From Solimonas sp. K1W22B-7 (GTDB lineage Bacteria; Pseudomonadota; Gammaproteobacteria; Nevskiales; Nevskiaceae): a DNA stretch of 64,000 nucleotides. Under the pieces are notes generated by a model. The model was not told where the DNA came from. It worked only from the letters and a program-made list of their open reading frames with translations, and made no database searches. Numbering within the stretch: the first letter of the stretch is position 1; each line of letters starts with the position of its first letter. Of this stretch, positions 15,326 through 51,566 are shown one piece after another. The stretch is from positions 4,724,071-4,788,070 of the forward strand of contig NZ_CP031704.1 of the NCBI RefSeq assembly GCF_003428335.1. Reading direction: 5' to 3'. The position numbers and the translations under genes are program-made.

Positions 15326-15369
15326 ACCTTACCCGCTGGGGAGCTCCTCGTCCCCGTCAAAAGTCTGGC
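15326..15369 (-). promoter_or_regulatory. Shared site G and -10-like hexamer before the nitronate monooxygenase gene
   Basis: Minus strand 15369-15352 reads GCCAGAC TTTT GACGGGG, a weaker copy of the element. TAAGGT at 15331-15326 lies 20 bp further and would give a leader of about 35 nt. Confidence 0.35.
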
Positions 15370-15386
15370 TTGGCTGGCCCCTGCCG

Positions 15387-15431
15387 CCCAGACTTTGGTA
15401 TTGCTGCCGACAAACCGCCCGAGACTAGGCT
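15387..15431 (+). promoter_or_regulatory. Shared site B and TAGGCT hexamer before the acyl-CoA dehydrogenase gene
   Basis: Plus strand 15387-15404 reads CCCAGAC TTTG GTATTGC. TAGGCT at 15426-15431 lies 21 bp further, the same spacing and hexamer as at site C. The leader to the ATG at 15539 would be about 100 nt. Confidence 0.45.
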
Positions 15432-15538: not shown

Positions 15539-16759
15539 ATGACCAGCATTCCTCGCCGTGCCGACAAGCTCTTCAAAGACATCTGGCTACCCGAGGAAAC
15601 CCTTCGCGTGCGCAAGGACGTCCGGCAGTTCGCGGATGACGTGGTGCGGCCCGTCGCCCAGAAAATCAACACGACCCCCGAGAGCCGCGACAGCTTCCCC
15701 CACGCGCTGTTCAAGGCGATGGGGTCAGCGGGGATCTACCGCATACCCTTCGCGCAGGACGTAGGCGGCCTGGGCCTGGAGTTCCCCACCCTGGGGACGG
15801 TGACTGTGCTGGAGGAGCTGGGCTACTACTCCCCCAGCCTCGCCTCCGCCCTCTTCGACGGCCAGGCGATCCTCGTGGGCCAGACACTCAACCGCGCCGG
15901 GGATTTCCTGCGCAAGACCTACCTGCCTCGCCTGGTCCGTGGTGAGTTCCTGGGAAGCTTCGCCACCAGCGAGCCGGAAGCCAGCACCGATCTTTCTCCG
16001 GCCAACATGCAGACCGTGGCGACCAAGGTGGACGGCGGCTGGGAAATCAGCGGCAAGAAGCGCTGGATCACCAACTCCGTGGCGGCCGACTACATCGCGG
16101 TGCTGTGCCGCAGTGGCGAACGCCAGACTTTCCTGTTCGCAGACATGCTGTCACCGGGCATTTCCGTCGGCGATCCCGATCGAAAAATGGGCAACTACGT
16201 GCAGCTGACGGCGGATGTGAACTTCGACAAGGTGTTCGTGCGCGATGATCACGTCATCGGCACGGAGGGCGCCGGCCTCAGGGCCGCCCTGGGCGCCCTG
16301 ATGCTCGGCCGCATGGGCATCGGCGCTATCGGCGTGGCGATGGCCCAGGCAGCGTTCGATTTCTCCTCGCACTACATCACCCAGCGCAAGGTGTTCGGCA
16401 AGCCGATCGCCGGCTTCCAGCACTGGCAGTTCCGTTTCGCTGATCATGCGCTGGGAATCGAGAACGCCCGCAATCTGGTGCACAAGGCCGCCATGCTCTA
16501 CGACAAGACCGGCAACGCCGAAACCGAGGCGGCCATGGCCAAGGTAGCGGGCTCGGAGCTGGCGGTGGATGTGGCTCGCGACGCCATCCAGGCTTGCGGC
16601 GCCTATGGCTTCGTCCAGACCCTGAGTGGATCCGGCGAACATTTCCCACTGGAATCGATCTATCGGGACGCGAAGATCGGCGAGATCTACGAAGGGGCGA
16701 ACGAAGTTCAGCGCTGGGTCGTGGCTCGCAACATCTTCGGACGGGATGTTACTGGGTAA
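15539..16759 (+). CDS. Acyl-CoA dehydrogenase
   Basis: A 406-residue FAD flavoprotein that introduces the 2,3-double bond in an acyl-CoA. Family landmarks are FATSEPEAST (flavin-binding region), GGWEISGKKRWITNS, GFQHWQFRFAD, and the C-terminal YRDAKIGEIYEGANEVQRWVVARN (in pieces) around the adenine-binding region. The last codons (NIFGRDVTG-stop) have a near copy 4.46 kb away at 21188-21219, suggesting that the 3' end was replaced by an insertion. Site B lies upstream. Chain-length specificity is not readable. Confidence 0.93.
   Translation: MTSIPRRADKLFKDIWLPEETLRVRKDVRQFADDVVRPVAQKINTTPESRDSFPHALFKAMGSAGIYRIPFAQDVGGLGLEFPTLGTVTVLEELGYYSPSLASALFDGQAILVGQTLNRAGDFLRKTYLPRLVRGEFLGSFATSEPEASTDLSPANMQTVATKVDGGWEISGKKRWITNSVAADYIAVLCRSGERQTFLFADMLSPGISVGDPDRKMGNYVQLTADVNFDKVFVRDDHVIGTEGAGLRAALGALMLGRMGIGAIGVAMAQAAFDFSSHYITQRKVFGKPIAGFQHWQFRFADHALGIENARNLVHKAAMLYDKTGNAETEAAMAKVAGSELAVDVARDAIQACGAYGFVQTLSGSGEHFPLESIYRDAKIGEIYEGANEVQRWVVARNIFGRDVTG
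16728..16759 (+). repeat. Left copy of a 32-bp imperfect direct repeat at the acyl-CoA dehydrogenase 3' end
   Basis: 25 of 32 bases match 21188-21219, with the first 13 (GCAACATCTTCGG) identical. Both copies are in the same orientation and encode NIFGRD(V/L)TG-stop. They flank the ferredoxin/FprA-fusion module. Confidence 0.75.
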
Positions 16760-16802
16760 ATCTCGGGCCGCAATTCATCTCATCCCGGTATATCTATCTC
16801 TT

Positions 16803-17234
16803 TCAAAGCCGAGGAAATCCTCGCCGAGATTCGGCTGTGAGGCGCCCCTGCCGGTAAAGCATGGCCGGGACGACAATCAACTCTATTGCCATAGCCCCGA
16901 GTACAAATGCTGCTCCTTCTGCGGATGTTGGAAGCCCGAATTGGATGAGGGACAGCAAGCGGCCAACGCCCCCAAGGACGACTATCCATAGGGCGGCATT
17001 CAGGATGCCGGAGTACTTCTCCAGATTCGACGAACAAACCCAGAGAAGTGCACCGAATCCAAACCAAATAGCCCCCAAGTAGCGGATTTGGCTGTTGAGT
17101 ACGGGATCGCCATAGCCCTCTTCCAGCGCAGCTCCGATGAGGTGTTGGCCTTTCAAGCCCACTACAACATCAACGCATCCGGTTACGAGGGCAATCAGCG
17201 CCAATGCTCGTACTGCAAAACAAAAACCAGTCAT
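16803..17234 (-). CDS. DUF4345-type small membrane protein
   Basis: A 143-residue protein with four predicted membrane helices (FAVRALALIALVTGCVDV; YLGAIWFGFGALLWV; GILNAALWIVVLGGVGRLL; FVLGAMAIELIVVPAML). The arrangement and the NSQIRYLGAIWFGFG block match the DUF4345 family, whose function is unknown. It overlaps the preceding gene by 4 bp (ATGA), so both are translated together. Base composition is noticeably less GC-rich than Region 1. It is the last gene of the ferredoxin/FprA-fusion operon and converges on the acyl-CoA dehydrogenase gene. Confidence 0.75.
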   Translation of the reverse strand: MTGFCFAVRALALIALVTGCVDVVVGLKGQHLIGAALEEGYGDPVLNSQIRYLGAIWFGFGALLWVCSSNLEKYSGILNAALWIVVLGGVGRLLSLIQFGLPTSAEGAAFVLGAMAIELIVVPAMLYRQGRLTAESRRGFPRL

Positions 17235-17701
17235 GGAGACACGAAGGGGATATGGGTCAGGCTGTAGGCGCTCGACGCCACCGCCGCCGCCAATGCGATT
17301 GCGACCGCCAGGAAATCACTGCCCACAGGTGAAGACTGCTGATCCGGCAAACGGATCCGAATGCATCGCTGGCGATGGGCCATGAATAGCGGCACAAAGA
17401 AGCTGATCCCGATCAGAAGGCTGCCGGCGAAGTAAACCCATGCCCATCCGGCGGCGATGCCTAGCCTGCGGCATTCGCCAAACATCCACACCAGCACCAC
17501 AGCGCCAAGCATGAGAATGTCCACAGCCAAGAACATGCTGGCAGGCGATGATAGGGCTTCGGTCCAGAACTGAATCGTTCCGTTGACCGGTCCCAGATGC
17601 AGGTAGGCCGGAAGCTGCGCGCTGGTACCAATCAAGCCGAGGATTGCGAGCAAGACGAACAGGATTTCCAGCCAGCGTGTATCGCGGACTACAGAGTTCA
17701 T
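17231..17701 (-). CDS. DUF2834-like membrane protein
   Basis: A 156-residue protein with about four hydrophobic segments (LEILFVLLAILGLIGTSA; MFLAVDILMLGAVVLVWMF; AGWAWVYFAGSLLIGISFFVPLFM; FLAVAIALAAAVASSAY). The spacing and the segment around WTEALSSPASMFLAVDIL resemble DUF2834, a family without known function. The ATG at 17701 follows the fusion gene stop by 22 bp; the open frame continues upstream inside that gene but lacks a start signal. It overlaps the next gene by 4 bp. Role: unknown, probably a membrane partner of the redox module. Confidence 0.65.
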   Translation of the reverse strand: MNSVVRDTRWLEILFVLLAILGLIGTSAQLPAYLHLGPVNGTIQFWTEALSSPASMFLAVDILMLGAVVLVWMFGECRRLGIAAGWAWVYFAGSLLIGISFFVPLFMAHRQRCIRIRLPDQQSSPVGSDFLAVAIALAAAVASSAYSLTHIPFVSP

Positions 17702-17723
17702 GAGGAGCCTCGGATGAGAAGGG

Positions 17724-20700
17724 TCAGGCGGCGTGACCAAGAAGATCGTCGCCGCGCGGTCCTCCAGAGGAGTACCCGCGAGATGCCTGGAACGGATCCC
17801 AATGCGGCCCGTGCTCCGGAAGTGCATTGCGATCCGATATGACAACGCCCTTCTGGAATTCCCGCAGCAAATCCCTGCCGATGATGTGCGAGGCCGTCCC
17901 GACGCCGCCACGCAACGTGAACGCCACTCCAAACAGGTAAGCGGTAGACGCGCCCGCCAGGAACAGGCCGGCGATCTCGGTGGTCACCGGCAGACGGCGG
18001 AACGGACCGATCTGATCCTTGGCATTCTCTGGTCCATAGGGCATGCGGGAGAGCGTGAAGCGTTCGTGAGTCAAAGGGGTTGCTGACTCCTGCCAGGCAA
18101 CGTGACCACGGAGTTCCGGGAGGACCTTCAGCGTTCGTTCGAGCAGCACGCTTTCGAACTCGGCCTTGCGCTCCTGGTAGATCTCGGAGAACTTGTAGTC
18201 GGTCCCTGCCTTGGGATCGCCGCCGCCCCAGAACTCATAGTCCGCGGGGGCTGAGGCGAAAAGCTCGATGGAGCTGTGGTCCGGAGGACCATAGTGGCGC
18301 TCGCCCCAGGTCTTGAGGGTGGGAGAGCTGATCGCCAGCCACCCCTTGGGGTCCCATTGACCCTTGTCCAGTAGATCGTAGGTCGCCTGGATGTCGTAGC
18401 GGTCGTGGAGGATATAGTTGGTTGCTGGCCTGGTCTTCGAGATGTCGATGTCCGCGCCGATGTACATCGAGAAAATCGAGTGAGGCCGACGATAGGCACG
18501 GATTCTCTCGATCGTGCGCTGGCTCAGATGGCTCGGATGGATCAGATTCTGGAACGTGCGGTGGACATCGGCATTGCTGACGACGACATCTGCCGAAATT
18601 CGTTCGCCATCGGAAAGCGTCACTCCTCGGACACGCCCGCTCTCCACGTCGATGGATCGAACCAGGGTCTTCGTGCGGATGACTCCGCCATGCGAGCGGA
18701 TGACCTCGGCCAAGTTGGCCGCAATAACCTGGCCGCCCTGCACGGGGAAATAGGCGCCAGCGCGGAAGTAGTGCTGCAGCAGGAGCGCGACGAGGAGTGC
18801 CGGCGTCCGGGCCGGCGGAGTATTGTGCAGGTGCACCAGCGCCAGCAGGGCCCCTCTGGCTTCCTGGCTAAGTTTGCACCGGTCGAACAGGTGCCCGATC
18901 GGGAATTCGAGGCCGCGCGCAATTGCCAGCGCTTCCAGAGGACGCTTCAGCAGCGGAGCGAGGACGCCAACCGAATGGGGCACATCGTTGATGCGATCTC
19001 CGCCTTCGCCGATGTATCTCAGCTCCTTGATGGCCTTTGTGAGGCCGTCGGCGTCCTTCGGGTAGGCGGCGCGGAGATTGCTGGCCAGCCCTTCCCAGTT
19101 GGTTGGAACGCGGAAGCTGTGGTCTGGGAACATGACCGTGTCCATTCCGCTATCGTCCAGCCGCGACCACTTGATGCGATCCTCTACGCCCAGCCCGCGA
19201 AGTACGGTCGAAATCATTCCGTCCGAGCCGGGCTCGCAGCCACCGACATAGTGCACGCCGCAGTCGAACTCCCATTTTCCCTTGCGACGGAAGGTCTGTG
19301 AGCAGCCGCCCAGGATTTCATGTTGCTCAAGCAAGAGAACGGACTTCCCGACGGCGGATAGGCATGCGGCGGTCGACAATCCGCCCAGGCCAGAGCCGAC
19401 CACGATGGCATCGTAGCGGCGCGATCCGCCCAAACCGCCAGGGATGGGATTGGCTCGCTCGCCGTGTGCCACGCCCAGCAAGGAGTCGATGCTGGTCAGC
19501 TTGACCCGGGGGCGCCCAGTCGTTGTGCCCGCTGCGCGTTCGGCGGCATCAATCGCTTGCCACCCTTGCCGGGTCACCAACTGAGGTTGCCGTCGAGCCA
19601 GCAGGGCGGCTATTTCCCCTCTGTCCGGAAGATCGGGCCGACCGACGATCCCGTGGGCGACGTCGCTCGCAAGTGCACGAACGGCATCGCGAGCGCACTT
19701 GCGATTTGTCCCGACGATGCCGCTCGGACCGCGTTTGGCCCAGCCGGTCACGTAGACGCCGGGCATCGCCTGCCCCTGCGAGAGGACGCGCCCGTCCTGG
19801 TTGGGAACTGTGCCTCGAGCTTCATCGAAGGGAAGACCATCGATCTTCAAGCCTCGATAGCCCACGGCGCGCAGGACAAGGCCAGCCTCGATCGTGGACT
19901 CGGCGGCCGCAGTGCTCTCCGTCGGCGCTCCATTCTGGAGATAGCCCAGTCGAAGGCCTTGAACCCGCGCTTCGCCCAGGATTTCGATGGGCGTGCTGAA
20001 GAACTTGAGATGCAGTTTGCGGGCGTACTGCCGGGCAGGCCGTTGAGCGTACGTGGTCAGGAGCTCGATTTTTCGCAGGGCACTTGCATCTGCGCCCTGT
20101 GCGATCGCGCTTTCCTTGCTCGGTAGATCGGTCGGGTCAACGATGATATCGACATCCGGAAGATCCGCGATCTCTTCAAGTTCGGCCGCGCCGAATGCTG
20201 CGTGAAGCGGACCGCGCCTGCCGACGAGAACGACTTCGCGGACGCTGCTTGCCCGCAACGCCTGCAGGGCGTGATCCGCGATATCCGTGCTGGCGAGGCT
20301 GTCCGGAGCACTCAGGAGTATCCGCGCGACATCCAGTGCGACATTCCCGTTGCCGACCACCACAGCACGTTGCGTGGACAGATCGAAATTGAAGTCTCGA
20401 GCCTCTGGATTGCCGTTGTACCAGGCAACGAAGCTCCTGGCGGAGGCGCTACCGGTCAGGTTTTCGCCTGGGATGCCGATGAGTCGATCACCCGCGGCGC
20501 CATGGGCAAGAATGATTGCGTCGTAGGATCGCGAGAGCTCCGCGACTGAAATGTTCTGGCCTACACAGATATTGCCGAAAAACCGGAAGCGCTCATGGTT
20601 GGCAAGGCGCTCGAAGGTATCAGCGATGCGCTTGCGTTCCGGGTGGTCGGGCGCGACGCCGCTGCGAATCAGCCCCCATGGGGTCGGCTGCCGTTCAAAG

Positions 20701-20849
20701 ACATCCACCTCGACCGGTTGCTGCATCAGGTGAACCATGCGGCCGTCCAGCCAGGTACCGCCCGGGCTGCCCAGAAGGTGCGCCGTCGCATACATCCCGG
20801 CAGGCCCGGAGCCCACGACCGCTACGCGGAGAGCTTTCGGGTCAGACAT
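17724..20849 (-). CDS. Fusion: FprA-type ferredoxin-NADP reductase + RetSat/CrtI-like FAD oxidoreductase
   Basis: A 1041-residue two-enzyme protein. Residues 1-460 match FprA/adrenodoxin reductase: FAD motif VVGSGPAGMYA (11-21), TPWGLIRSGVAPDHP (56-70), NADP motif VVGNGNVALDVAR (164-176), and GWAKRGPSGIVGTNR (369-383). Residues about 479-1041 form a second flavoprotein: DAIVVGSGLGG (480-490), LEQHEILGGCSQTF, and FDCGVHYVGG, as in retinol saturase and carotenoid isomerase relatives, ending in AGASTAYLFGVAFTLRGGVG-type FAD closure. The start ATG lies inside the last codons of the ferredoxin gene (8-nt overlap), so the two are coupled. Electrons could run NADPH to FprA domain to ferredoxin (or the reverse), serving reduction or desaturation of a polyene or steroid-like substrate. 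The substrate is unknown. Confidence 0.88.
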   Translation of the reverse strand: MSDPKALRVAVVGSGPAGMYATAHLLGSPGGTWLDGRMVHLMQQPVEVDVFERQPTPWGLIRSGVAPDHPERKRIADTFERLANHERFRFFGNICVGQNISVAELSRSYDAIILAHGAAGDRLIGIPGENLTGSASARSFVAWYNGNPEARDFNFDLSTQRAVVVGNGNVALDVARILLSAPDSLASTDIADHALQALRASSVREVVLVGRRGPLHAAFGAAELEEIADLPDVDIIVDPTDLPSKESAIAQGADASALRKIELLTTYAQRPARQYARKLHLKFFSTPIEILGEARVQGLRLGYLQNGAPTESTAAAESTIEAGLVLRAVGYRGLKIDGLPFDEARGTVPNQDGRVLSQGQAMPGVYVTGWAKRGPSGIVGTNRKCARDAVRALASDVAHGIVGRPDLPDRGEIAALLARRQPQLVTRQGWQAIDAAERAAGTTTGRPRVKLTSIDSLLGVAHGERANPIPGGLGGSRRYDAIVVGSGLGGLSTAACLSAVGKSVLLLEQHEILGGCSQTFRRKGKWEFDCGVHYVGGCEPGSDGMISTVLRGLGVEDRIKWSRLDDSGMDTVMFPDHSFRVPTNWEGLASNLRAAYPKDADGLTKAIKELRYIGEGGDRINDVPHSVGVLAPLLKRPLEALAIARGLEFPIGHLFDRCKLSQEARGALLALVHLHNTPPARTPALLVALLLQHYFRAGAYFPVQGGQVIAANLAEVIRSHGGVIRTKTLVRSIDVESGRVRGVTLSDGERISADVVVSNADVHRTFQNLIHPSHLSQRTIERIRAYRRPHSIFSMYIGADIDISKTRPATNYILHDRYDIQATYDLLDKGQWDPKGWLAISSPTLKTWGERHYGPPDHSSIELFASAPADYEFWGGGDPKAGTDYKFSEIYQERKAEFESVLLERTLKVLPELRGHVAWQESATPLTHERFTLSRMPYGPENAKDQIGPFRRLPVTTEIAGLFLAGASTAYLFGVAFTLRGGVGTASHIIGRDLLREFQKGVVISDRNALPEHGPHWDPFQASRGYSSGGPRGDDLLGHAA

Positions 20850-21108
20850 GGCGGAGGCCCTCGAAGTACTGCGCGTTCTGGCGGATCGCGTCCTTCCAGC
20901 GTTCCGGGACCCGGCGGGAGTCGAAGATGGCTCCGACCGGGCACGCTTCGACGCAGGCTTCACAATCTATGCAGCGAGTCGGATCGATGTAGAGCTGATC
21001 AGCGCTATCGAACGCTCTGTCATCCGGAGTGGGGCTGATAGCTCCAGCTGGGCACACCTCTACGCAGGAGTAGTCGGCTACACAAGGTGAGGTGATGACG
21101 AATGGCAT
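20842..21108 (-). CDS. 7Fe ferredoxin ([3Fe-4S][4Fe-4S])
   Basis: An 88-residue ferredoxin. The first motif Cys9-x5-Cys15-x3-Cys19-Pro is the 3Fe-4S pattern of Azotobacter FdI-type proteins. The second, CIDCEACVEACP, is a normal 4Fe-4S motif. ATG at 21108 is preceded by AAAGGAGAGCC; ten upstream codons in frame look spurious. Its stop overlaps the start of the FprA fusion, and FprA enzymes commonly use such ferredoxins, so it is almost surely the redox partner of the N-terminal domain. A perfect palindrome lies 45 bp upstream. Confidence 0.92.
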   Translation of the reverse strand: MPFVITSPCVADYSCVEVCPAGAISPTPDDRAFDSADQLYIDPTRCIDCEACVEACPVGAIFDSRRVPERWKDAIRQNAQYFEGLRHV

Positions 21109-21153
21109 AGACGGCTCTCCTTTTTGCCCTGGAGCCAAAAAATGACATAAGGG

Positions 21154-21165
21154 CTGTTATAACAG
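21154..21165. promoter_or_regulatory. 12-bp perfect palindrome in front of the ferredoxin operon
   Basis: CTGTTATAACAG, a perfect inverted repeat, with ATAA and TTAT arms on either side (21147-21150, 21170-21173). It lies 45-57 bp before the ferredoxin ATG, in AT-rich sequence. It looks like a dimeric repressor operator (TetR or GntR type), but no regulator gene for it is next to it. Confidence 0.5.
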
Positions 21166-21186
21166 TGTTTTATCTGGTTTGTACCC

Positions 21187-21219
21187 TGCAACATCTTCGG
21201 GCGGGACCTGACGGGCTGA
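21187..21219 (+). pseudogene. C-terminal tail remnant of an acyl-CoA dehydrogenase gene
   Basis: Eleven codons reading CNIFGRDLTG-stop on the plus strand, nearly the end of the intact gene at 15539-16759 (RNIFGRDVTG-stop). Nothing homologous precedes it. Codons here are GC-richer than in the left copy, so this may be the original host end displaced by the insertion of 16760-21187. Confidence 0.6.
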
Positions 21220-21228
21220 ACCCTGTCT

Positions 21229-21426
21229 TCAAGGCATCCCGATCGACGACCAGAGGATGCGCCGGACCTCACGGGGGGCGGCGTAGCCGGTGGCCGGATG
21301 CGCGGTCTCGCCGTCGTCCAGATCGAGCCGCGATTGCCGCAGCGTTCCAGACGGGAAGCGCTCAGACCACCGCCCCGATCGACCACCGAATTCGCGGTGC
21401 AAGGCCGATTTGCTGTGGTTTTCCAT
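21229..21426 (-). CDS. Small hypothetical protein behind a strong ribosome site
   Basis: A 65-codon frame. CAGGAGGTAAGCC, a near-perfect Shine-Dalgarno, precedes the ATG, and a copy of the shared element (site E) lies 68 bp upstream at the same distance as for other regulon genes. The product (starting MENHSKSALHREFGGRSGRW) is basic and soluble, without membrane segments or motifs I recognise. It could be a real small protein or the 5' stub of a gene cut short by the rearrangement on its downstream side. It follows the SDR gene by about 105 bp. Confidence 0.45.
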   Translation of the reverse strand: MENHSKSALHREFGGRSGRWSERFPSGTLRQSRLDLDDGETAHPATGYAAPREVRRILWSSIGMP

Positions 21427-21466
21427 GGCTTACCTCCTGTAGCGATGCCGCGGGAACCTGGGGTAT

Positions 21467-21511
21467 AGCGTTCCCCATCCGCGGTCGATCGACCCCAACC
21501 CTTAGTTAGTT
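21467..21511 (-). promoter_or_regulatory. Shared site E (half-match) before the small gene
   Basis: Minus strand 21511-21494 reads AACTAAC TAAG GGTTGGG: the right half is perfect, the left degenerate. AACGCT (21472-21467) lies 21 bp away; TATACC lies five bases further. The leader to the ATG at 21426 would be about 33 nt. Confidence 0.35.
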
Positions 21512-21531
21512 AGCAGGAGGCCGTCGTGGCT

Positions 21532-22341
21532 TCAGGCTGGCTGCAGGCCGTAGCGCGCATGGCCCGTCAGTGACTGCCCCCCGTCGCAGACCACAGTCGT
21601 CCCCGTGATGTAGCCGGCAGCACTCGTCGAAAGGAACAAGGCCAAGTCCGCGATCTCGTCAAGGCTGGCGTAGCGTCCCAGCGGAATACGCTCGTATAGG
21701 GCCGCGCGAGACGCCTCGTCAGGAGTCAGGCGGGCCATGCCCTCGGTACCGTCTACCGGCCCCGGGGCGAGCGAGTTCACGCGCACGCCGTCCTTCCCCC
21801 ACTCTAGGGCCAAAACCTGGGTCAGCATCTGAATGCCCGCCTTGGCAGAACACACGTGGGCCTGTCCCTCCGCGGGTAGCAATGCGTGGGTCGCGCTGAT
21901 GGCCAGCAATGAGGCGCCAGGCTTGCGCAGCCTCGGATAGGCAGCGCGGAACACGTGGAACGTCCCGTTGAGATCGATGTCGACCACAGTGCGGAACCCG
22001 TTTGATGACAGGGTGTGCGCCGGAGCGACAAAGTTGCCAGCTGCCCCGGAGACAACGATGTCGATGGGGCCCAGGCTGTCTGCGCACTGGTTGATTGCAG
22101 CCTCCACAGCAGCAAAGTCGCGCACGTCCGCGGCCGCTCCCTCAGCCTTGGCGCCCAATGCGCGCAGCTCCGCCACGGTGTCATCGATTTTCGACTGATC
22201 CCGGCTGACGACGAAAACTGCCGCGCCATGAGCCGCATAACGACGCGCGATGGCGCGATTGATTCCGCGGCTGCCGCCGGCAACGAAGGCTACGCGGCCG
22301 GAAAGTGCCGAGGCGCTGAAGAGTGACGTGGAGGAGTTCAT
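21532..22341 (-). CDS. SDR oxidoreductase (2,4-dienoyl-CoA reductase-like)
   Basis: A 269-residue short-chain dehydrogenase. It has the nucleotide motif GGSRGINRA and the segment VVSGAAGNFVAPAHTLSSNGFRTVVDIDLNGTFHV (in pieces) typical of peroxisomal-type 2,4-dienoyl-CoA reductases. The usual catalytic Tyr-x3-Lys is replaced here by HVCSAKAG, keeping the Lys but not the Tyr, as in that subgroup. It probably reduces an unsaturated acyl-CoA with NADPH. The gene at 44240-45040 is a close homologue. It lies 13 bp after the enoyl-CoA hydratase gene in the FadL operon. The start at 22341 is chosen at the family N-terminus; the ribosome site is weak. Confidence 0.85.
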   Translation of the reverse strand: MNSSTSLFSASALSGRVAFVAGGSRGINRAIARRYAAHGAAVFVVSRDQSKIDDTVAELRALGAKAEGAAADVRDFAAVEAAINQCADSLGPIDIVVSGAAGNFVAPAHTLSSNGFRTVVDIDLNGTFHVFRAAYPRLRKPGASLLAISATHALLPAEGQAHVCSAKAGIQMLTQVLALEWGKDGVRVNSLAPGPVDGTEGMARLTPDEASRAALYERIPLGRYASLDEIADLALFLSTSAAGYITGTTVVCDGGQSLTGHARYGLQPA

Positions 22342-22354
22342 GGGAGGCACCAAT

Positions 22355-23182
22355 TCAGAGACCGTAGGACGGAGCACGCTTCTGCTGCACTGCATCGAGG
22401 GATTCGCGCAGGTCTTCACCCGGCATCATGGCCGCGTTCCAGGCTGCGACGTAGGACAAGCCGTCAGCGACACTCCGGTCTCGGGCCCAGAGCAGGTTTC
22501 GCTTGATGCCTCGCAAGGCCACCGGTGATTTCGACGCAATGGTTGCCGCGAGGCGATTCACCGCCTCGCGCAGGGTATCGGGGGATTCATGAACCTGGGA
22601 TACCAATCCCAGCTTCCGCGCCTCCTGGCCGTCGAAGTGCTGGGCGGTGTAGCTGAGCTCTGCCAGGACCGAGTATCCGAGCACGTGTCTCAGGCGCTGG
22701 ATCGTGCCCACGTCAGGGACGACCCCGAGATCCGCCTCCTTGATGGAGAAGCGCGCATCCACCGTGCAGAGCCGCATGTCGCAGGCGGCAATCAGGTCCA
22801 CTCCGGCGCCGATACAGGCACCCTGAATCTCCGCGATCACCGGGACGCGCAGACCCTCGATGGCGTTGAAGGCAGCCTGCACACGTTCGATGAATGCGAG
22901 CAGCGCCTCTCGCCCCCGCGCCGAGCAAGCATTTCCAGAGGCTAGTTCCAGCAGGTGACGGATCACCGACAGGTCGATCCCCGCGCAGAAATGACGCCCT
23001 TCACCGAACAGGATCGCCACTCGTAGGCCCTGCTGGCCGGACAGCCAAGCGAAGGCCGCAGGGAGTTCCTCCCACATGGCCAGATCGAAAGCATTGGCCT
23101 TGTCCGGACGACATAGCCCGACACGTCCGATGTGGCCATCCATCGTGGCCCGAACCGCGCTACCCCTGTATTCCATGCTCAT
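22355..23182 (-). CDS. Enoyl-CoA hydratase/isomerase family protein
   Basis: A 275-residue crotonase-fold protein. Oxyanion-hole segments are FGEGRHFCAGIDLS and IQGACIGAGVDLIAACDMRL. The later SIKEADLGVVPDVGTIQRLRH carries Glu and Asp near the positions used by dienoyl-CoA isomerases (KEADLGxxxDxG), so delta3,5-delta2,4-dienoyl-CoA isomerase activity is more likely than plain hydration. This fits the dienoyl-CoA reductase-like SDR next door: together they would handle unsaturated acyl chains. Two adjacent ATGs (23182 and 23176) are possible; GAGG is better spaced for the second. It starts 5 bp after the FadL stop. Confidence 0.88.
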   Translation of the reverse strand: MSMEYRGSAVRATMDGHIGRVGLCRPDKANAFDLAMWEELPAAFAWLSGQQGLRVAILFGEGRHFCAGIDLSVIRHLLELASGNACSARGREALLAFIERVQAAFNAIEGLRVPVIAEIQGACIGAGVDLIAACDMRLCTVDARFSIKEADLGVVPDVGTIQRLRHVLGYSVLAELSYTAQHFDGQEARKLGLVSQVHESPDTLREAVNRLAATIASKSPVALRGIKRNLLWARDRSVADGLSYVAAWNAAMMPGEDLRESLDAVQQKRAPSYGL

Positions 23183-23186
23183 GTCC

Positions 23187-24434
23187 TCAGAAGCGCTTGC
23201 CCAGCGACAGGCCGGTGATGATCTGCTGCACGTGGATATCGGCCTCGCCGCCGCCGAATGCCGCGGGAATTGAGCCACTGCCGGCAACACGGCTCCGCGG
23301 CACGAACGCCGAAACGCCGGTGATTTCCCAGCCACCCGCCAGGGACTGAGTCGTACCGAGCGTGTAGTGCTCCTTCATCACCAAGGGAGCGGCCATGCCG
23401 AAGAAAGTTTCAGAGGGCGGCATGATCTCGCTGGACCGGCTGTATCCGGCGCGCAGCCGCAGGCCCGGACGCACATCCCAGGCGAACCCGAACTTGTAGA
23501 TATCCTGATCTCGCCAACCGAAGCCAGGACCGCCATCCGATCCCAGGAGACGGCCCTGGGCAAGCCGCGAGGCAGGGTTGCCCGTAGCGTCCTGACCACT
23601 GAATTCCACACGGCTGAAGTCGACACTGAAGGACAGCACAGGGGTTGCCTGGTAGCGGAGTCCCAGGCCCAGGATCGCCGGCAGGTCTAGTTGGCCACCG
23701 TTCGGCAGTAACCCGCGGTAGCGACGGAACTTGCCCAGCCGCGTCGGCGAACGCCATGCGATCCCGGAGTCCAGTTGCTCGCTCAGGCGGCCTTGCCAGC
23801 CGATCTGCAGGCTGTAGCCGAATTCCGAATCCGATCCCTGGTCGGAGACCTGGGCGGGCGATTGGGAAACCGGCGCCAGGAAGCCCAGACCCTTCGCATT
23901 GATTTCCTGATACGCAAGATTCAGCCCTACGCCGACGTTCTGGCCGGGGACGACGGCATAGGCCATCGAGGTGGAGACCACCGACTGCATGAGCTTGATG
24001 CCCGCTCGGTCGCTCCCGCCAAACCGGGCGTAGGGGCTGCGCTTGTAGTCGGTACCGAACCCCGCACCGAACACGGTGACGCCGATGGCGGCGCGATCGC
24101 CCAGCGGAGTGGACCAGCCACCCTGGGGAATGAAGAAGTGCGCCTGCCCGTCCGACCGGTAAGCATCATTGGCACCGAATGCATTGCCGCCAATGGCACT
24201 GCCTGCTTCCACGTAGAGCCAGTCCAGGCCCAGGTCGAAGCGACGCCCCAGAGACAAGACCGCTGCCGAGTTGGCCGCCATCGCGGGGGTGTCCTCGGCG
24301 CGGGCCACGGCCACGCCACCCGCCCCCTCGGATTTCAATCCGTAGCCGTGGGCAAACACCCCGTATCCGGCACTGACCGGCCCCGCATGCGCCAGCAGGA
24401 GCGCCAAGGCTCCCACGCCAGATCGCTTGAGCAC
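23187..24434 (-). CDS. FadL/OmpP1/TodX-type outer-membrane channel
   Basis: A 415-residue outer-membrane protein with a signal peptide (VLKRSGVGALALLLAHAGPVSA) and a GYGVFAHGYGLKSEGAGGVAVARAEDT segment, a form of the FadL N-terminal hatch (G-x-k-x-x-G-x-g-G-a). Later AFxxNPA-like and beta-strand segments end in GLSLGKRF, with terminal Phe. FadL proteins let long-chain fatty acids or hydrocarbons diffuse into the outer membrane. The start is GTG at 24434 behind GGAGGAGAT; the frame is open much further upstream (to 25511), but that part overlaps the aldehyde dehydrogenase gene and is not protein-like. First gene of an operon with a dienoyl-CoA isomerase-like protein and an SDR. Confidence 0.88.
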   Translation of the reverse strand: MLKRSGVGALALLLAHAGPVSAGYGVFAHGYGLKSEGAGGVAVARAEDTPAMAANSAAVLSLGRRFDLGLDWLYVEAGSAIGGNAFGANDAYRSDGQAHFFIPQGGWSTPLGDRAAIGVTVFGAGFGTDYKRSPYARFGGSDRAGIKLMQSVVSTSMAYAVVPGQNVGVGLNLAYQEINAKGLGFLAPVSQSPAQVSDQGSDSEFGYSLQIGWQGRLSEQLDSGIAWRSPTRLGKFRRYRGLLPNGGQLDLPAILGLGLRYQATPVLSFSVDFSRVEFSGQDATGNPASRLAQGRLLGSDGGPGFGWRDQDIYKFGFAWDVRPGLRLRAGYSRSSEIMPPSETFFGMAAPLVMKEHYTLGTTQSLAGGWEITGVSAFVPRSRVAGSGSIPAAFGGGEADIHVQQIITGLSLGKRF

Positions 24435-36548: not shown

Positions 36549-36593
36549 GCCAGACTTAGGTTGGGGAACATCCCTGCGCACAAGGACGATCTT
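36549..36593 (+). promoter_or_regulatory. Shared site F and -10-like hexamer before the small membrane protein/tatA pair
   Basis: Plus strand 36549-36566 reads GCCAGAC TTAG GTTGGGG. GATCTT at 36588-36593 lies 21 bp further, giving a leader of about 34 nt to the ATG at 36634. Confidence 0.4.
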
Positions 36594-44239: not shown

Positions 44240-45040
44240 TTACTTGGCATCCGCGCTCACGGCCCTTGCCAATCCTACAGCACCCCCCAGACTGCAACCG
44301 CCATCCACAGGGAGTACCACGCCGGTGACGTAACTGGCCATGGGGCTGGCGAGCCAAAGACAGGCGTCGGCGACCTCCTGCTTGGTGCCGAAACGACCCA
44401 ATGGCACGGAATCAGCGACAAGCCTGCTCAGCTCCGGCGTAGGTGAGAGGCGCGCCATACCCTCGGTGTCCGCGATGGGGCCAGGCGCCACGGAGTTGAC
44501 GCGTATTCCCGATTTTCCCCACTCCATGGCCGCGACCCGGGTAATCATGTCCACCCCCGCCTTGGCCGCACAGGCATGCATCTGAAACGCCATGGGGATG
44601 TAGGACTGAGGCGCCGATATGTTGATGATGCACGCACCGGGTTGGCGCAGGTAGGCGACTGCTGTCCGCAGCACATGAAAGGTGCCCATCAGGTCGATGT
44701 CGATGACGGTCTTGAACGCATTGGGGGAAAGGCCCAGCGCCGGGGCAGGGAAATTTCCTGCAGCGCCGGACACCAGGATATCAATGGGACCGAACCGGGC
44801 GTGAGCGGCTTTCAGCGCTGCTTCTGTGGCTGCGGGATCACGCACGTCGGCACTGAAGCCCAGCGCAACACCGCCATGGGCCTTGAGCGCCGTCACAGCA
44901 GCATCGACCTTGTCCTGGCGGCGAGACATGACAACCAGTTGTGCGCCCGCCAGGGCAAAAGCATGGGCGATTCCGAGATTGATGCCACTGGTACCACCGG
45001 CAACGAACACGGTTTTGCCGGTGTAGTCGAAAGGTTTCAT
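44240..45040 (-). CDS. atuG: SDR oxidoreductase, AtuG-like
   Basis: A 266-residue SDR: GGTSGINLGIA cofactor motif, VSGAAGNFPAPALGLSPNAFKTVIDIDLMGTFHV (in pieces) and CAAKAGVDMITRV in place of the usual Tyr-x3-Lys. It is a homologue of the 2,4-dienoyl-CoA reductase-like gene at 21532. Position after the carboxylase alpha gene matches atuG in the Pseudomonas acyclic terpene cluster, where it is assigned to oxidation of citronellol or related steps. AAGAGACATCC precedes the ATG. The symbol rests mainly on gene order. Confidence 0.8.
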   Translation of the reverse strand: MKPFDYTGKTVFVAGGTSGINLGIAHAFALAGAQLVVMSRRQDKVDAAVTALKAHGGVALGFSADVRDPAATEAALKAAHARFGPIDILVSGAAGNFPAPALGLSPNAFKTVIDIDLMGTFHVLRTAVAYLRQPGACIINISAPQSYIPMAFQMHACAAKAGVDMITRVAAMEWGKSGIRVNSVAPGPIADTEGMARLSPTPELSRLVADSVPLGRFGTKQEVADACLWLASPMASYVTGVVLPVDGGCSLGGAVGLARAVSADAK

Positions 45041-45064
45041 GGATGTCTCTTGGCTACAGAATAG

Positions 45065-47008
45065 TTAGTCCGCAATGCTCAGCAGCAATTGCCGCTTTTT
45101 GACCTGCTGCTTGAGGCTGGTGCTAAGGCTGCCGATCCTGCCGTCACGATTGGCCGTGAGCTGATATTCGATCTTCATGGCCTCCATGATGACGAGGGTC
45201 TGGCCCTTCACCACGCTGTCGCCTTGCTCCACCAGGATGGCGACGACGGCGCCATCCGTGGGCGCGCGCACGCTGCCATCGTCTGCCACGTCAGCGATTG
45301 CCGGTGGCGCATGGGTGACGTTGGTGATCGTGAGGTTGCCACCGGCGCAGCCAAGAAACAGGGTTTCATCGTCCAGTGCGTAGTGAACAAGCTGACGGAC
45401 GCCGGCCATTTCATAGGCCAGCGTTTGCGCATCCAGGGCCAAGACCCTGATGCGGGCATGCTGATCCTTGCAGGCGACATGCAGCTCACCATCAATCACC
45501 TGCGTGGAGAGCAGGTGCACTTGCTCGCCCACCTGCAATTTCAGGGGCGAACTGCTGGGCGCGCCGGTTTGCCAGCCGCCGTTGCCCGATTCGCTGTGCA
45601 GGATGATGGCGGCGGAAACGGCGAGCATCGCAGGGGGGGGCGCCGCCGGCATCATGCTGGGGTCGTCGCTGAAATGCGTATCGATAAACGCGGTCGAGGT
45701 GTCGCCGGCGACAAACACCGGATGGCGCAGAAGATTGCAGAGAAACTGCTTGTTGTTGTTGACGCCCAGCAGCACGGTGTCTTGCACACCGCTCGCCAGC
45801 AGGCGAGCGGCATCTTCGCGGGTCCTTCCCCATGCGATCACCTTGGCGACCATGGGATCGTAGTGGGGGCTGATGACGCTGCCGCTGCGCATGCCGTGGT
45901 CAATGCGCAGGCCGGGCTGTGTCGCCGGCTGCCACCGCAGGATGCGCCCGGTCTGCGGCAGGAACTTGTTGCCCGGGTCCTCGGCATAGAGACGCACTTC
46001 GATGGCGTGCCCATTGATTTGCAGTTCATGCTGCTGCAACGGCAGCTTTTCTCCATTGGCGACGCGCAGCTGCCACTCCACCAGGTCCTGGCCGGTGATG
46101 AGTTCCGTTACCGGGTGTTCCACCTGCAGGCGGGTATTCATTTCCAGAAAATAGAAGCGGCCCTGACTGTCGAGCAGGAACTCCACCGTGCCGGCACCGA
46201 CGTAGTCCACGCTTCGGGCCGCGGCAACCGCGGCTTCTCCCATCTGCCTGCGCAGCTCGGGTGTCATGACCGGGCACGGCGCTTCTTCCACCACCTTCTG
46301 GTGGCGGCGTTGAATCGAACAATCCCGCTCGAACAGATAGACGTGATTGCCGTGGGTGTCGCCAAAAATCTGGATCTCGACATGACGCGGGGCAATCACC
46401 GCGCGTTCCAGAATCAATTCGCCGGACCCAAAGGCGTTCTCCGCTTCGGATCGCGCGGTTGCCAGGGCAGCGGCCAGGTCTTCTGCCTTGTGGACCAAGC
46501 GCATGCCGCGACCGCCGCCGCCTGCCGAGGCCTTGACCATGACCGGGAAGCCGATGCGGCTGGCCTCGGCCATGAATTTCTCGGGACGCTGGTCATCGCC
46601 TTCGTAACCCGGAACGCAGGGTACGCCGGCCTTGATCATGGCGATCTTGGCCAGTCGCTTGCTCCCCATCAACTCGATCGCCGACGGGGTGGGTCCGATG
46701 AACGTGATGTGATGATCGGCGCAGGCCTGGGCAAAGGCTTCGTTTTCAGAAAGGAAGCCATAGCCCGGATGCACGGCGTCTGCTCCGGTTTTCTTGCAGG
46801 CATCGATGATGGCCTCGATGCGCAAATAGGACTCGGAGACCTTGGCGGGGCCGATGCACACGGCCTCATCCGCTGCGCTCACATGCAGGGCGTCGGCATC
46901 GGCTTCCGAATAGACCGCCACGGTGCGATAGCCCAGCATCTTGGCGCTGCGCATGACGCGTACGGCGATCTCACCGCGATTGGCGACTAGAACTTTGGAA
47001 AATGCCAT
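45065..47008 (-). CDS. atuF: Geranyl-CoA carboxylase alpha subunit (biotin carboxylase + BCCP), AtuF-like
   Basis: A 647-residue biotin carboxylase with C-terminal biotinyl domain. The N-terminus VLVANRGEIAVRVMRSAKMLG, ATP-grasp segment KASAGGGGRGMRLV, catalytic EMNTRLQVEHPVTE, and biotin site EAMKIEYQ with Lys612 (AMKIE in place of the commoner AMKME). Sequence alone does not separate methylcrotonyl- from geranyl-CoA carboxylase; gene order (atuB-C-D-E-F-G with divergent atuR) supports geranyl-CoA. It carboxylates the terpene chain so that the beta-methyl branch can be removed. Confidence 0.88.
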   Translation of the reverse strand: MAFSKVLVANRGEIAVRVMRSAKMLGYRTVAVYSEADADALHVSAADEAVCIGPAKVSESYLRIEAIIDACKKTGADAVHPGYGFLSENEAFAQACADHHITFIGPTPSAIELMGSKRLAKIAMIKAGVPCVPGYEGDDQRPEKFMAEASRIGFPVMVKASAGGGGRGMRLVHKAEDLAAALATARSEAENAFGSGELILERAVIAPRHVEIQIFGDTHGNHVYLFERDCSIQRRHQKVVEEAPCPVMTPELRRQMGEAAVAAARSVDYVGAGTVEFLLDSQGRFYFLEMNTRLQVEHPVTELITGQDLVEWQLRVANGEKLPLQQHELQINGHAIEVRLYAEDPGNKFLPQTGRILRWQPATQPGLRIDHGMRSGSVISPHYDPMVAKVIAWGRTREDAARLLASGVQDTVLLGVNNNKQFLCNLLRHPVFVAGDTSTAFIDTHFSDDPSMMPAAPPPAMLAVSAAIILHSESGNGGWQTGAPSSSPLKLQVGEQVHLLSTQVIDGELHVACKDQHARIRVLALDAQTLAYEMAGVRQLVHYALDDETLFLGCAGGNLTITNVTHAPPAIADVADDGSVRAPTDGAVVAILVEQGDSVVKGQTLVIMEAMKIEYQLTANRDGRIGSLSTSLKQQVKKRQLLLSIAD

Positions 47009-47023
47009 GTCATGGGTTCCCGA

Positions 47024-47833
47024 CTATTCAGCCCACTTGGGCGCGCGTTTCTGCACGAAAGCTTGAGTGCCCTCGACACCTTCTCCAGCGGAAACGGCGC
47101 GGGCAAACTGTCTCGCAGCGTCATCGAGCAGGCCCTCCAGGGGCTCCTTGCCGGCCCGGTGCAGCAGGGCCTTGGTTGCGCGACTGGCCTGTGGTGCAGC
47201 ACGCTTGACCAGGGCCAGTGCTTCGGCCACAGCAGCCTCCAGCGCCTGCACCGAATCCACGACCTGATGCACGATGCCGAGACGCAATGCCTCCTCGCCG
47301 TTGAAGCGGACCCCGAGCAGGGCCAGGCGGCGCGCCTGCGTCAGGCCGATGCGCTGCACCACAAAGGGAGAGATCTGCGCCGGCGGGATGCCCAGGCTTG
47401 TTTCCGGCAGGCCAAACTGCGTCGTGTCGAGGCTGATTGCCACATCGGACACGCAGGCGAGGCCAAAACCGCCACCCAGCACGGCGCCTTCCAGCGCCAC
47501 GATGACGACCTGCGGCGCCCGATCGATTTTCGTGATCAAGGTGCCGCCGCCGCGGTTGAGCGAGACATAGGCTTCGTCGTTGCCGCTGCGAGCGGCCTCG
47601 GCGCGGGCACCAGCCATGTCCTTGATGTCGCCGCCGGCGCAGAAGTTGCCGCCCTTGCCACGCAGCACCACGGCGCGGATTTCCGGGTTGGGGGCAATGG
47701 CGTCGAATACGGCGCCGAGTTCCTGCACCATTTGCAGGCTCAGGGCATTGCGGACGTCGGGGCGATTCAGCCAGATATGCAGGGCAAGACCGTCTTGCTG
47801 CAGTTCCAGGGCTTCAGTTCTGGGCAGATCCAT
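47024..47833 (-). CDS. atuE: Isohexenylglutaconyl-CoA hydratase-like enoyl-CoA hydratase, AtuE-like
   Basis: A 269-residue crotonase-fold protein: LRGKGGNFCAGGDIKDMAG and LEGAVLGGGFGLACVSDVAISL form the oxyanion hole, followed by LPETSLGIPPAQISPFVV. In the atu pathway AtuE hydrates isohexenylglutaconyl-CoA after carboxylation. It sits between the AtuD-like dehydrogenase (4-bp gap) and the carboxylase alpha subunit (15-bp gap), as in Pseudomonas. Close paralogues act in leucine degradation (LiuC), so the symbol rests on context. Confidence 0.85.
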   Translation of the reverse strand: MDLPRTEALELQQDGLALHIWLNRPDVRNALSLQMVQELGAVFDAIAPNPEIRAVVLRGKGGNFCAGGDIKDMAGARAEAARSGNDEAYVSLNRGGGTLITKIDRAPQVVIVALEGAVLGGGFGLACVSDVAISLDTTQFGLPETSLGIPPAQISPFVVQRIGLTQARRLALLGVRFNGEEALRLGIVHQVVDSVQALEAAVAEALALVKRAAPQASRATKALLHRAGKEPLEGLLDDAARQFARAVSAGEGVEGTQAFVQKRAPKWAE

Positions 47834-47837
47834 GGCC

Positions 47838-49013
47838 TTAGGCCGCCCTTTTCTTTTTGCCAGGCAGGATGTTCATCTGCTTGCAGATGATGCCGAGCAT
47901 GACCTCGTCGGCACCGCCGCCAATGGAGCCCAGACGCATGTCGCGGTAGGCGCGGGATACCGGGTTTTCCCACATGAAGCCCTGGCCGCCCCAGTACTGC
48001 AGACAGCCGTCGGTCACCTCACGCGCCAGCCGGCCAGCCTTCAGCTTGGCCATGGACGCAAGGCGTGTGACTTCGACGGCATCGCCGCCGCCGACATGGG
48101 CTTCGCAGGCCCGGTAGATCAGCGAGCGCAGCAGTTCGACCTCGGTCTGCAGTTCGGCCATGCGAAAATGAATGACCTGGTTGTCGATCAGCGGCTGACC
48201 GAAGACGCTGCGCTGGCGGCAATAGTCGATGGTCTGGTTGATGCAGTTTTCCATGCCGCCCAGTGCGGAGACGGCGCAATACAAACGCTCCTCCTGAAAC
48301 TGCGCCATCTGCATCGTGAAGCCCATGCCTTCGGCACCCACGAGGTTGCGCTGCGGGACGCGCACGTTGTCGAAGAAGACCTGCGCTGTATCCGACGAGC
48401 GCATCCCCATCTTGTTCAGTCTCCTGGATACGGTGATGCCGGGCGTTTTGGCCGGCACGATGATCATGGACTTGTTGAGGTGGGACCTGTCGTCCGAGGT
48501 ATTGGCAAGCAGGCAGAAGAAGTCAGCCTGGGTCGAGTTCGTGATCCACATCTTGGTGCCGTTGATGACGTAATCACCGCCGTCTTTCCGGGCATTGGTC
48601 TTGATGGCGGCGACATCGGAACCAGCATGGGGTTCTGAAACGGCAATCGCAGCAACGTAGTCACCGGCAATCACCGGGGTCAGGAATTCTTCACGCAAGG
48701 CCTTGCTGCCGAACCGGGCCAGGGCCGGTGTAGCCATGTCCGTCTGCACGGCGATCGCCGTGGGCACCCCTACGCAGGCGATACGACCGAACTCTTCCAT
48801 CACCACCATGTTGTAGGAATAATCGAGACCCAGGCCGCCGTTCTCCTCCGGCTTGCAGATGCCGAGCAGGCCGAGATTGCCCAGCTTCTTGAACAGGTCG
48901 TGGGCGGGAATCAGCCCTGCCTCTTCCCATTCATCGACATGGGGATTGATTTCCTTTTCGACAAAGGCGCGGGCGGTGCGGCGCAGTTGCTCATGCTCAT
49001 GGGTGAACTTCAT
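47838..49013 (-). CDS. atuD: Citronellyl-CoA dehydrogenase-like acyl-CoA dehydrogenase, AtuD-like
   Basis: A 391-residue acyl-CoA dehydrogenase. Family blocks: IAVSEPHAGSDVAAIKTNARKDGGDYVINGTKMWITNS (in pieces), QRSVFGQPLIDNQVIHFRMAEL, and the C-terminal YWGGQGFMWENPVSRAYRDMRLGSIGGGADEVM region. The GGQGFMWEN stretch near the catalytic base is typical of the AtuD group, which oxidises citronellyl-CoA to geranyl-CoA. AGGAGCGTCAA precedes the ATG. Confidence 0.88.
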   Translation of the reverse strand: MKFTHEHEQLRRTARAFVEKEINPHVDEWEEAGLIPAHDLFKKLGNLGLLGICKPEENGGLGLDYSYNMVVMEEFGRIACVGVPTAIAVQTDMATPALARFGSKALREEFLTPVIAGDYVAAIAVSEPHAGSDVAAIKTNARKDGGDYVINGTKMWITNSTQADFFCLLANTSDDRSHLNKSMIIVPAKTPGITVSRRLNKMGMRSSDTAQVFFDNVRVPQRNLVGAEGMGFTMQMAQFQEERLYCAVSALGGMENCINQTIDYCRQRSVFGQPLIDNQVIHFRMAELQTEVELLRSLIYRACEAHVGGGDAVEVTRLASMAKLKAGRLAREVTDGCLQYWGGQGFMWENPVSRAYRDMRLGSIGGGADEVMLGIICKQMNILPGKKKRAA

Positions 49014-49079
49014 TTGACGCTCCTGGTTTTGTGTGGACGCACGGGAACGGGCTGGACCCTTCCATGAGGTCTTGCGTCG

Positions 49080-50696: not shown

Positions 50697-51566
50697 CTAT
50701 TGGCTCTCCTTCAGAACCTCGGGAATGAAGGCACGGTGGAAGCCGTTGAAAGGTTCGGAGTTCTGGTGGTCGGCCAGCGGATAGATCGGCGAGCAGAGCG
50801 TGGCGGCACCGTCGACGGGGACGGTGACGCCGGAGACATAGGCGGCAGCATCGGACAGCAGGAAACAGGCGACGCTGGAGATTTCGGATTCGGTGCCCAG
50901 GCGTTTCAGGGGCGACTTGGATGCCAGCATGGGAATCATGGCGCGGAAGTCGCCCTTGTAGGTGTCCATGCCCGAGGACATGATCCAGCCGGGCGCCACT
51001 GCGTTGACGCGCACGCCGGATTTGGCCCATTCGAGAGCGGCCGTCTTGGTCAGGTTTTCCACCCCGGCACGTGCGGCTCCCGAATGTCCCATGCCGGGCA
51101 TGCCATTGGTGATGATGGCGCTCATGTTGACGATGGCGCCGCCATGCTGGCGCATGCTCTGGTTGTAGACTTCGCGCATCATCAGGAAAGTGCCGAGCAG
51201 ATTGTTGCGCACCACGGCATCGAAGCCGTTGGCCGAGATGCTGTCCAGCGCCGAGGGAAACTGGCCGCCGGCATTGTTGAAGAGGCCGTGGATCCGGCCG
51301 AACTCGCTGACGATCTGGGAGATGGTGTCCTTGACCTGCCCGTCCTCGCGGATGTCGCAGATCATGGTGCGTACGCTGCCGCCGTCTTCCTGTATTTCGG
51401 CGGCGACCTGGTCGAGCTTTTCCTGCTTGCGGCCGGTGATGATGACGCTGGCACCCAAGGCCGCCAATTCATGCGCGGCGCAGCGGCCGATGCCGGAACC
51501 GCCACCGGTGACCATGACGACCTTGCCCTTGAAGGCTTCAGTTCTGAAGAGGGAGTTGTATTTCAT
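50697..51566 (-). CDS. atuB: SDR oxidoreductase, AtuB-like
   Basis: A 289-residue SDR with GGGSGIGRCAAHEL, NNAGGQFPSALDSISANGFDAVVRNNLLGTFLMMREV (in pieces) and a C-terminal GVTVPVDGAAT block. The Tyr of the usual YxxxK is absent (HSGAARAGVENL), as in the 2,4-dienoyl-CoA reductase subgroup. In Pseudomonas, AtuB is assigned to oxidation of citronellol/citronellal. It directly follows the truncated atuA frame and abuts atuC. Confidence 0.82.
   Translation of the reverse strand: MKYNSLFRTEAFKGKVVMVTGGGSGIGRCAAHELAALGASVIITGRKQEKLDQVAAEIQEDGGSVRTMICDIREDGQVKDTISQIVSEFGRIHGLFNNAGGQFPSALDSISANGFDAVVRNNLLGTFLMMREVYNQSMRQHGGAIVNMSAIITNGMPGMGHSGAARAGVENLTKTAALEWAKSGVRVNAVAPGWIMSSGMDTYKGDFRAMIPMLASKSPLKRLGTESEISSVACFLLSDAAAYVSGVTVPVDGAATLCSPIYPLADHQNSEPFNGFHRAFIPEVLKESQ

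Follow-up and report, generated by a model that had tools for sequence, protein, structure and literature searches.

Integration of the prophage type into the 3′ ends of protein-coding genes such as icd duplicates the gene end, with synonymous changes. In Rhs loci, a new 3′ end (the C-terminal tip) becomes joined to the gene, and the previous end moves to a silent position downstream, for which homologous recombination via a circle has been proposed (PMC2935791). Displacement of type VI secretion system (T6SS) effector–immunity genes in Vibrio was ascribed to a process resembling homology-facilitated illegitimate recombination (HFIR), with a proposed homologous anchor on one side and an illegitimate end on the other (PMC5361080). 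HFIR itself combines a homologous joint on one side with a non-homologous joint on the other; its inserts measure about 1 kb on average and are accompanied by a deletion of similar size (PMC3240628). Here, we analysed a 64,000-nucleotide stretch (the window) of the single-contig, 5.37-Mb genome of Solimonas sp. K1W22B-7, in which the last 32 bp of an acyl-CoA dehydrogenase (ACAD) gene (the left tail) recur beyond a 4.4-kb insert of redox and membrane-protein genes (the right tail; Table 1). We propose that incoming DNA, through recombination anchored at the gene end, pushed the resident 3′ end aside, an account that we place just on the probable side. As in Rhs loci, a displaced end belonging to the same family of genes would lie downstream; unlike in icd-type integration, no integrase was found and there is no clean element edge.

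The two tails are in the same orientation and identical at 25 of 32 positions, including the first 13, which bears out the repeat and the two encoded peptides described in the first-pass annotation of the bare sequence. The next best 32-mer match within the window reached 19/32, and the maximum over 100 first-order Markov sequences of 64 kb was 21/32. A tail pattern made degenerate at synonymous sites matched twice in the whole genome, both times at this locus, with no match in the reversed control. Among 3,793,018 positions scanned in other loci, on both strands and with some stretches present twice, 14 reached at least 23/32; all of them are ACAD gene ends, from 11 distinct genes. The right tail is closer to acyl-CoA dehydrogenases than chance would give, against the possibility that the annotation had named as a refutation. 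A six-frame scan for the tail peptide followed by a stop, in loci L001–L100, likewise found it solely at ACAD gene ends. Among 46 window genes predicted by codon scoring, the ACAD gene alone has its last 32 nucleotides repeated at a separate place at 24/32 or better; the gene at 57098–58456 (score of 25) is not counted, because its match is an overlap at its own end. The last bases of that gene (near 58421–58456) form an overlapping palindrome, 25/32 identical to the opposite strand and possibly a terminator.

Of the seven differences between the tails, five fall at third codon positions. Another affects the first position of a codon whose third position also differs, replacing V by L, and the last converts TAA to TGA, so that a single residue is altered and the stop is retained. 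When seven random substitutions were simulated, at most one position (stop counted) was changed in 0.08% of trials, or in 0.2–0.3% with a transition bias; a looser test, which asked only that all residues be among those observed in 92 family tails, was passed in 0.9–2.0%. Because this pattern is rare under random change, both ends probably diverged while coding, and the right one would have been cut off from its gene body later. Upstream of the right tail, likeness to the ACAD fades at about 21187, where the preceding residues read WFVPC, unlike the family, versus WVVAR in this ACAD; the ungapped repeat extends to 21174 at 72% overall. Since the tails differ as two coding ends do, we read the right tail as a displaced gene end, and its being a true ACAD-type end is supported by the sequence comparisons. 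A recent duplication of the gene end was rejected, as its copies should be near identical, and an old duplication followed by neutral decay is unlikely given the coding-type differences.

The right edge of the insert was compared with the three loci that hold a complete fused reductase gene (L144, L145 and L146, of Nevskia type). In all three, a divergent TetR gene precedes the ferredoxin gene (identified with Pfam for L145 and L146, and read from the translation for L144). Between the two genes lie paired ATAAC-N3-GTTAT sites 20 bp apart (L144:7609–7641, L145:7949–7981 and L146:1066–1098), a pair that occurs nowhere else in those three fetched stretches at one mismatch and is the probable TetR switch. 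In the window, a single site of this kind remains. It lies 50 bases ahead of the ferredoxin start, compared with 57–61 in the relatives, and both the TetR gene and the outer operator are gone from there. Judged by the relatives' spacing, the outer site would be expected at about 21179–21191, which is where the ACAD tail begins; this truncation is deduced solely by comparison with relatives of about 66–70% identity. As the TetR gene and the outer operator disappear about where the tail begins, the right joint appears to cut the ferredoxin regulatory region, which suggests an illegitimate joint rather than the tidy edge of a cassette. The relatives' TetR has six weak matches in the genome (the best with an E-value of 2.3e-10 at 26% identity) and no close copy there. 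A search for sigma-70-type promoters in 21090–21560 returned none, with 0.2 expected by chance; in the relatives, a −35-like TTGACA was read by eye before the ferredoxin gene.

A collinear locus lacking the insert is present in Hydrocarboniphaga daqingensis (L003), with the order YCF48, DUF1329, RND, ADH, ACAD, FadL and ALDH, in which the ACAD and FadL stops are 21 bases apart. The ADH, ACAD, RND, DUF1329 and ALDH genes are 73–81% identical to their H. daqingensis counterparts, and YCF48 is 56% identical. The empty locus that the first-pass annotation had proposed to look for thus exists in part: because NMO, SDR and enoyl-CoA hydratase (ECH) genes are also lacking from L003, it is only a partial empty site and not a clean before-state. 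In three congeners (G001–G003), no ACAD orthologue was found (best match 34–35%). Among the best 80 named loci of 131 confirmed, from which the ACAD relatives were taken, the closest belong to an uncultured Sinobacteraceae, Hydrocarboniphaga and Panacagrimonas, with Nevskia, Solimonas and other proteobacteria further down. The two orthologues referred to below are L002 (85% identical over residues 6–406) and L003 (78% over residues 1–406).

Which tail is native was addressed by comparing both with orthologue tails, leaving out loci with an ACAD alignment that fell short of residue 406 or the stop, as well as the copies in the window itself and further entries for a gene already counted. Over 78 distinct tails, the right tail was closer in 51 cases and the left in 15, with 12 ties; at 65% protein identity or more (n = 23), the right tail was closer in 19 and the left in one, with three ties. 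The check that the earlier annotation had called for was thereby run and points to the right tail, which we take to be native with moderate confidence on these comparisons. The last seven codons of the left tail have the lowest GC content at third positions (GC3) of the gene (2/7; one of 401 windows) and of the 46 predicted gene ends, and this low-GC3 end adjoins the AT-richer left end of the insert. A mosaic scan of the ACAD against six orthologues, one of which (L075) differed in length, found no clear breakpoint.

In the mechanism that we favour, the incoming DNA, in which redox genes on the minus strand were attached to an ACAD-like end, would have recombined at or near the 3′ end of the resident ACAD gene. 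The gene would have retained a complete end, namely the left tail that was brought in, while the resident's own end, now the right tail, would have shifted 4.4 kb downstream, still beside the 65-codon open reading frame (ORF) and the SDR-ECH-FadL genes. The left joint would be homologous and lie inside conserved ACAD coding sequence; the right joint would be illegitimate, falling between the two operators of the ferredoxin operon and removing the divergent TetR gene; in an HFIR product, such a joint would carry 3–10 bp of microhomology. A dedicated integrase would not be required. The order of events, the left tail as newcomer and homology as the anchor are what we infer. The first-pass annotation had offered either integration that regenerated the gene end or recombination with another ACAD locus: a complete end was indeed kept, and recombination is the better of the two, site-specific integration being unlikely. 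A locus pairing this ACAD with the fused reductase was not found in the loci and genomes searched.

Several observations weigh against this account. The nearest orthologue, L002, is no closer to one tail than to the other (25/32 with each), and the GC3 at its own gene end is 3/7; a GC3 of at most two in seven at the end occurs in 3 of 61 orthologues with a gene GC3 of at least 0.75, the window's gene included. For these reasons, codon composition is weak evidence, and the better fit of the right tail may be partly due to its GC-rich codons. Neither the best 80 named loci of 131 confirmed nor the genomes searched (117 in one search and 85 in another, own included) yielded a donor or an intermediate. 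The insert, at 4.4 kb, exceeds what HFIR inserts average, and no loss of the resident tail is visible, this end lying 9 bases from the convergent ORF. Moreover, FadL is only 49–50% identical to that of H. daqingensis, and since most flanking genes reach 73–81%, the right block could itself be the newcomer.

The last point leads to the mirror image of the favoured mechanism, in which the ACAD gene with its left tail and the redox genes would be older, and the right block (right tail, 65-codon ORF, SDR, ECH and perhaps FadL) would have come from another ACAD locus. Besides the low FadL identity, the lack of SDR and ECH in L003 fits this order, the left tail has its GAT and ACT codons in common with L002, and ferredoxin-FprA genes near an ACAD in Mycolicibacterium (L041 and L080) indicate that the two may be old neighbours elsewhere. 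We nevertheless consider it unlikely, given that the right tail is the closer one to the orthologues and that the L003 FadL gene adjoins the ACAD and is, narrowly, the best FadL match of the order (others 47–50%).

An explanation that we rate as similarly unlikely is site-specific integration into the ACAD 3′ end, with an attachment site mimicking the gene end, a crossover in GCAACATCTTCGG, and an integrase that was lost or acted in trans. A direct repeat of the gene's 3′ end flanks the insert, its 13-bp identical core is followed by synonymous divergence, likeness fades just before the core, and codon composition shifts after it, all of which count in its favour. It is opposed by the right edge, which truncates an operator region instead of forming a clean end, and by the searches for a recombinase and a carrier. 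No recombinase or transposase domain was detected in the insert proteins tested, and PF00589 (tyrosine recombinase) had no match in the window, although other recombinase families were not searched window-wide; to this extent, the earlier statement that no integrase is present holds. No other genome showed the same site occupied: across 98 other loci (1.53 Mb, some stretches twice), a second tail was nowhere found with a pattern that requires GR and leaves GK ends uncovered. Viral contigs contained no exact match of the tail pattern, and no phage DNA matched; 14 plasmids matched at most 13% of the stretch, in the reductase/ferredoxin part, and none of 209 plasmids with reductase-like proteins covered 80% of the fusion. 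The genome has three Phage_integrase matches, all outside the window, the nearest about 30 kb left of the ACAD. At about this distance on the left, a gene for a tyrosine recombinase of 485 residues (L173:8057–9514; genome C1:4708056–4709513) precedes some 9 kb of genes with weak scores, which may form a genomic island of their own. Transposition was rejected, with no inverted ends seen, no pair linking both edges among the 25 longest of the 55 inverted pairs, and no transposase domain in the insert proteins tested.

Slightly less probable still is a reading of the right tail as all that is left of another ACAD paralogue, the remainder of which was deleted when the redox genes settled. The tails differ from each other about as much as each does from L002 (25/32), as would genes of roughly 85% protein identity, and a tandem pair of distant members occurs within one locus (L073; 43% and 45%). 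This reading, however, requires a deletion ending within 32 bp of the stop, and among 15 scored ACAD matches in the genome the second best is only 35% identical. We give little credence to a small integrase-less cassette that targets a conserved catabolic gene at its 3′ end and carries a replacement end, by which redox operons would dock harmlessly behind ACADs. Chance similarity of the two tails, which has nothing but their short length in its favour, is contradicted by the whole-genome pattern search, the window's next-best match, the Markov simulation and the 46-gene test, and its probability is negligible.

Compared with the described systems, the displacement that we favour departs from Rhs tips in that those are variable and kept with core fragments, whereas here the end is a conserved one of 32 bp, in a gene for a metabolic enzyme, with redox genes as the cargo. 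Nor is an ACAD core fragment kept before the right tail, where clear likeness starts only at about 21187; one short crossover with a circle, on the Rhs model, would leave the old end intact, yet a piece of donor ACAD would be expected ahead of it, and none is seen. With the T6SS loci, the present one shares that a displaced 3′ end remains, but the Vibrio model was drawn from many strains compared, while here there is one genome and no intermediate.

Table 1. Features of the ACAD locus, in window positions.
Feature	Position	Strand	Basis or remark
Acyl-CoA dehydrogenase (ACAD), intact, 406 aa	15539–16759	+	Pfam PF00441, PF02771 and PF02770 above cut-off
Left tail, end in use, NIFGRDVTG-stop; GC3 2/7 in last 7 codons	16728–16759	+	
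DUF4345 membrane protein, GC 0.551	16803–17234	−	Pfam PF14248
DUF2834 membrane protein	17231–17701	−	Pfam PF11196
FprA-type NADPH:ferredoxin reductase (~residues 1–465) fused to CrtI/carotenoid-isomerase-like flavoprotein (~478–1029), 1041 residues	17724–20849	−	NCBIfam matches below curated cut-offs
Ferredoxin, 88 aa, closest to 7Fe ferredoxins	20842–21108	−	Pfam Fer4 (longer ORF, same end); 7Fe ferredoxins among PDB matches
Operator-like site ATAAC-N3-GTTAT, one mismatch	21159–21171		Sole such site in window; overlaps palindrome CTGTTATAACAG (21154–21165)
Putative right joint, ferredoxin regulatory region/ACAD tail	21172–21188		ACAD likeness fades here (WFVPC vs WVVAR)
Right tail, NIFGRDLTG-stop, putative displaced ACAD end, without preceding gene body	21188–21219	+	
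65-codon ORF, convergent with right tail, 9 bases away	21229–21426	−	AGGAGG-like ribosome site by eye
SDR family oxidoreductase	21532–22341	−	Family profile matches
Enoyl-CoA hydratase family protein (ECH)	22355–23182	−	Family profile matches
FadL/TodX-type outer membrane protein, start uncertain	23187–24416	−	Directly after ACAD in L003

The family-supported genes between the tails all lie on the minus strand, as the earlier annotation had it, plus-strand ORFs there being only mechanical. The lower GC ascribed to the whole insert applies mainly to its left kilobase (0.568 in 16760–17723, against 0.626 in 17724–21187 and 0.632 and 0.659 in the flanks). As to the set of genes sharing one regulatory element, which the insert was said to interrupt, the element was not specified, and a quick ungapped search of intergenic regions below position 45000 gave none that was convincing. 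A weak candidate for a shared element is the inverted pair AAGTCTGG/CCAGACTT between NMO and the ACAD gene (15361–15395), to which CCAGACTTAGGT at 36550–36561 is similar. For the 65-codon ORF, no homologue was found in Pfam, NCBIfam or the fetched loci. Further along, 44240–51566 holds what we take, by eye, to be a carboxylase/acyl-CoA dehydrogenase/hydratase set like acyclic terpene or leucine degradation clusters.

Description of the insert as one redox module proved too simple. The full-length fused reductase is present in three of 84 other genomes of the order, with one further partial copy at a contig edge, at 66–70% identity. DUF2834 has 72% identical relatives in two of three congeners, at loci without any other window gene, and the best relative of DUF4345 in the order (63%) belongs to another genus and is not beside a fused reductase gene; in genomes holding both, the two are far apart. 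As the ferredoxin/FprA-CrtI operon, DUF2834 and DUF4345 have their nearest relatives at different genomic places, the insert is, by these comparisons, composite. The first half of the fusion matches FprA (1lqt, E-value 2.5e-122) and adrenodoxin reductase, and the second resembles phytoene desaturase and carotenoid isomerase, below NCBIfam cut-offs. From these matches, the cargo would form a chain that runs from NADPH via the FprA domain to the ferredoxin and supplies a CrtI-like FAD enzyme, which would act on an isoprenoid or other polyene substrate. In Mycolicibacterium (L041:5733–7328 and L080:12433–14026), distant ACAD homologues have unfused ferredoxin-FprA pairs, 44–59% identical, 3 to 5 kb away; this proximity, found in two of 80 named loci, may reflect chance or a functional link. 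Among the entries listed in literature searches on FprA with carotenoid isomerase, Hydrocarboniphaga ACAD clusters and gene-end integration, there was nothing on such an arrangement.

Gene-end displacement is best known from toxin loci, and here it would have affected an ordinary acyl-CoA dehydrogenase gene. The duplicated gene end would be an acquisition scar of a kind already known in other bacteria, from which the direction and the joints of the event may be readable. The fused FprA/CrtI-like reductase with its ferredoxin makes up a rare, self-contained electron chain of biochemical interest, and, with its regulator region truncated, the acquired redox operon is predicted to have come under a different control.

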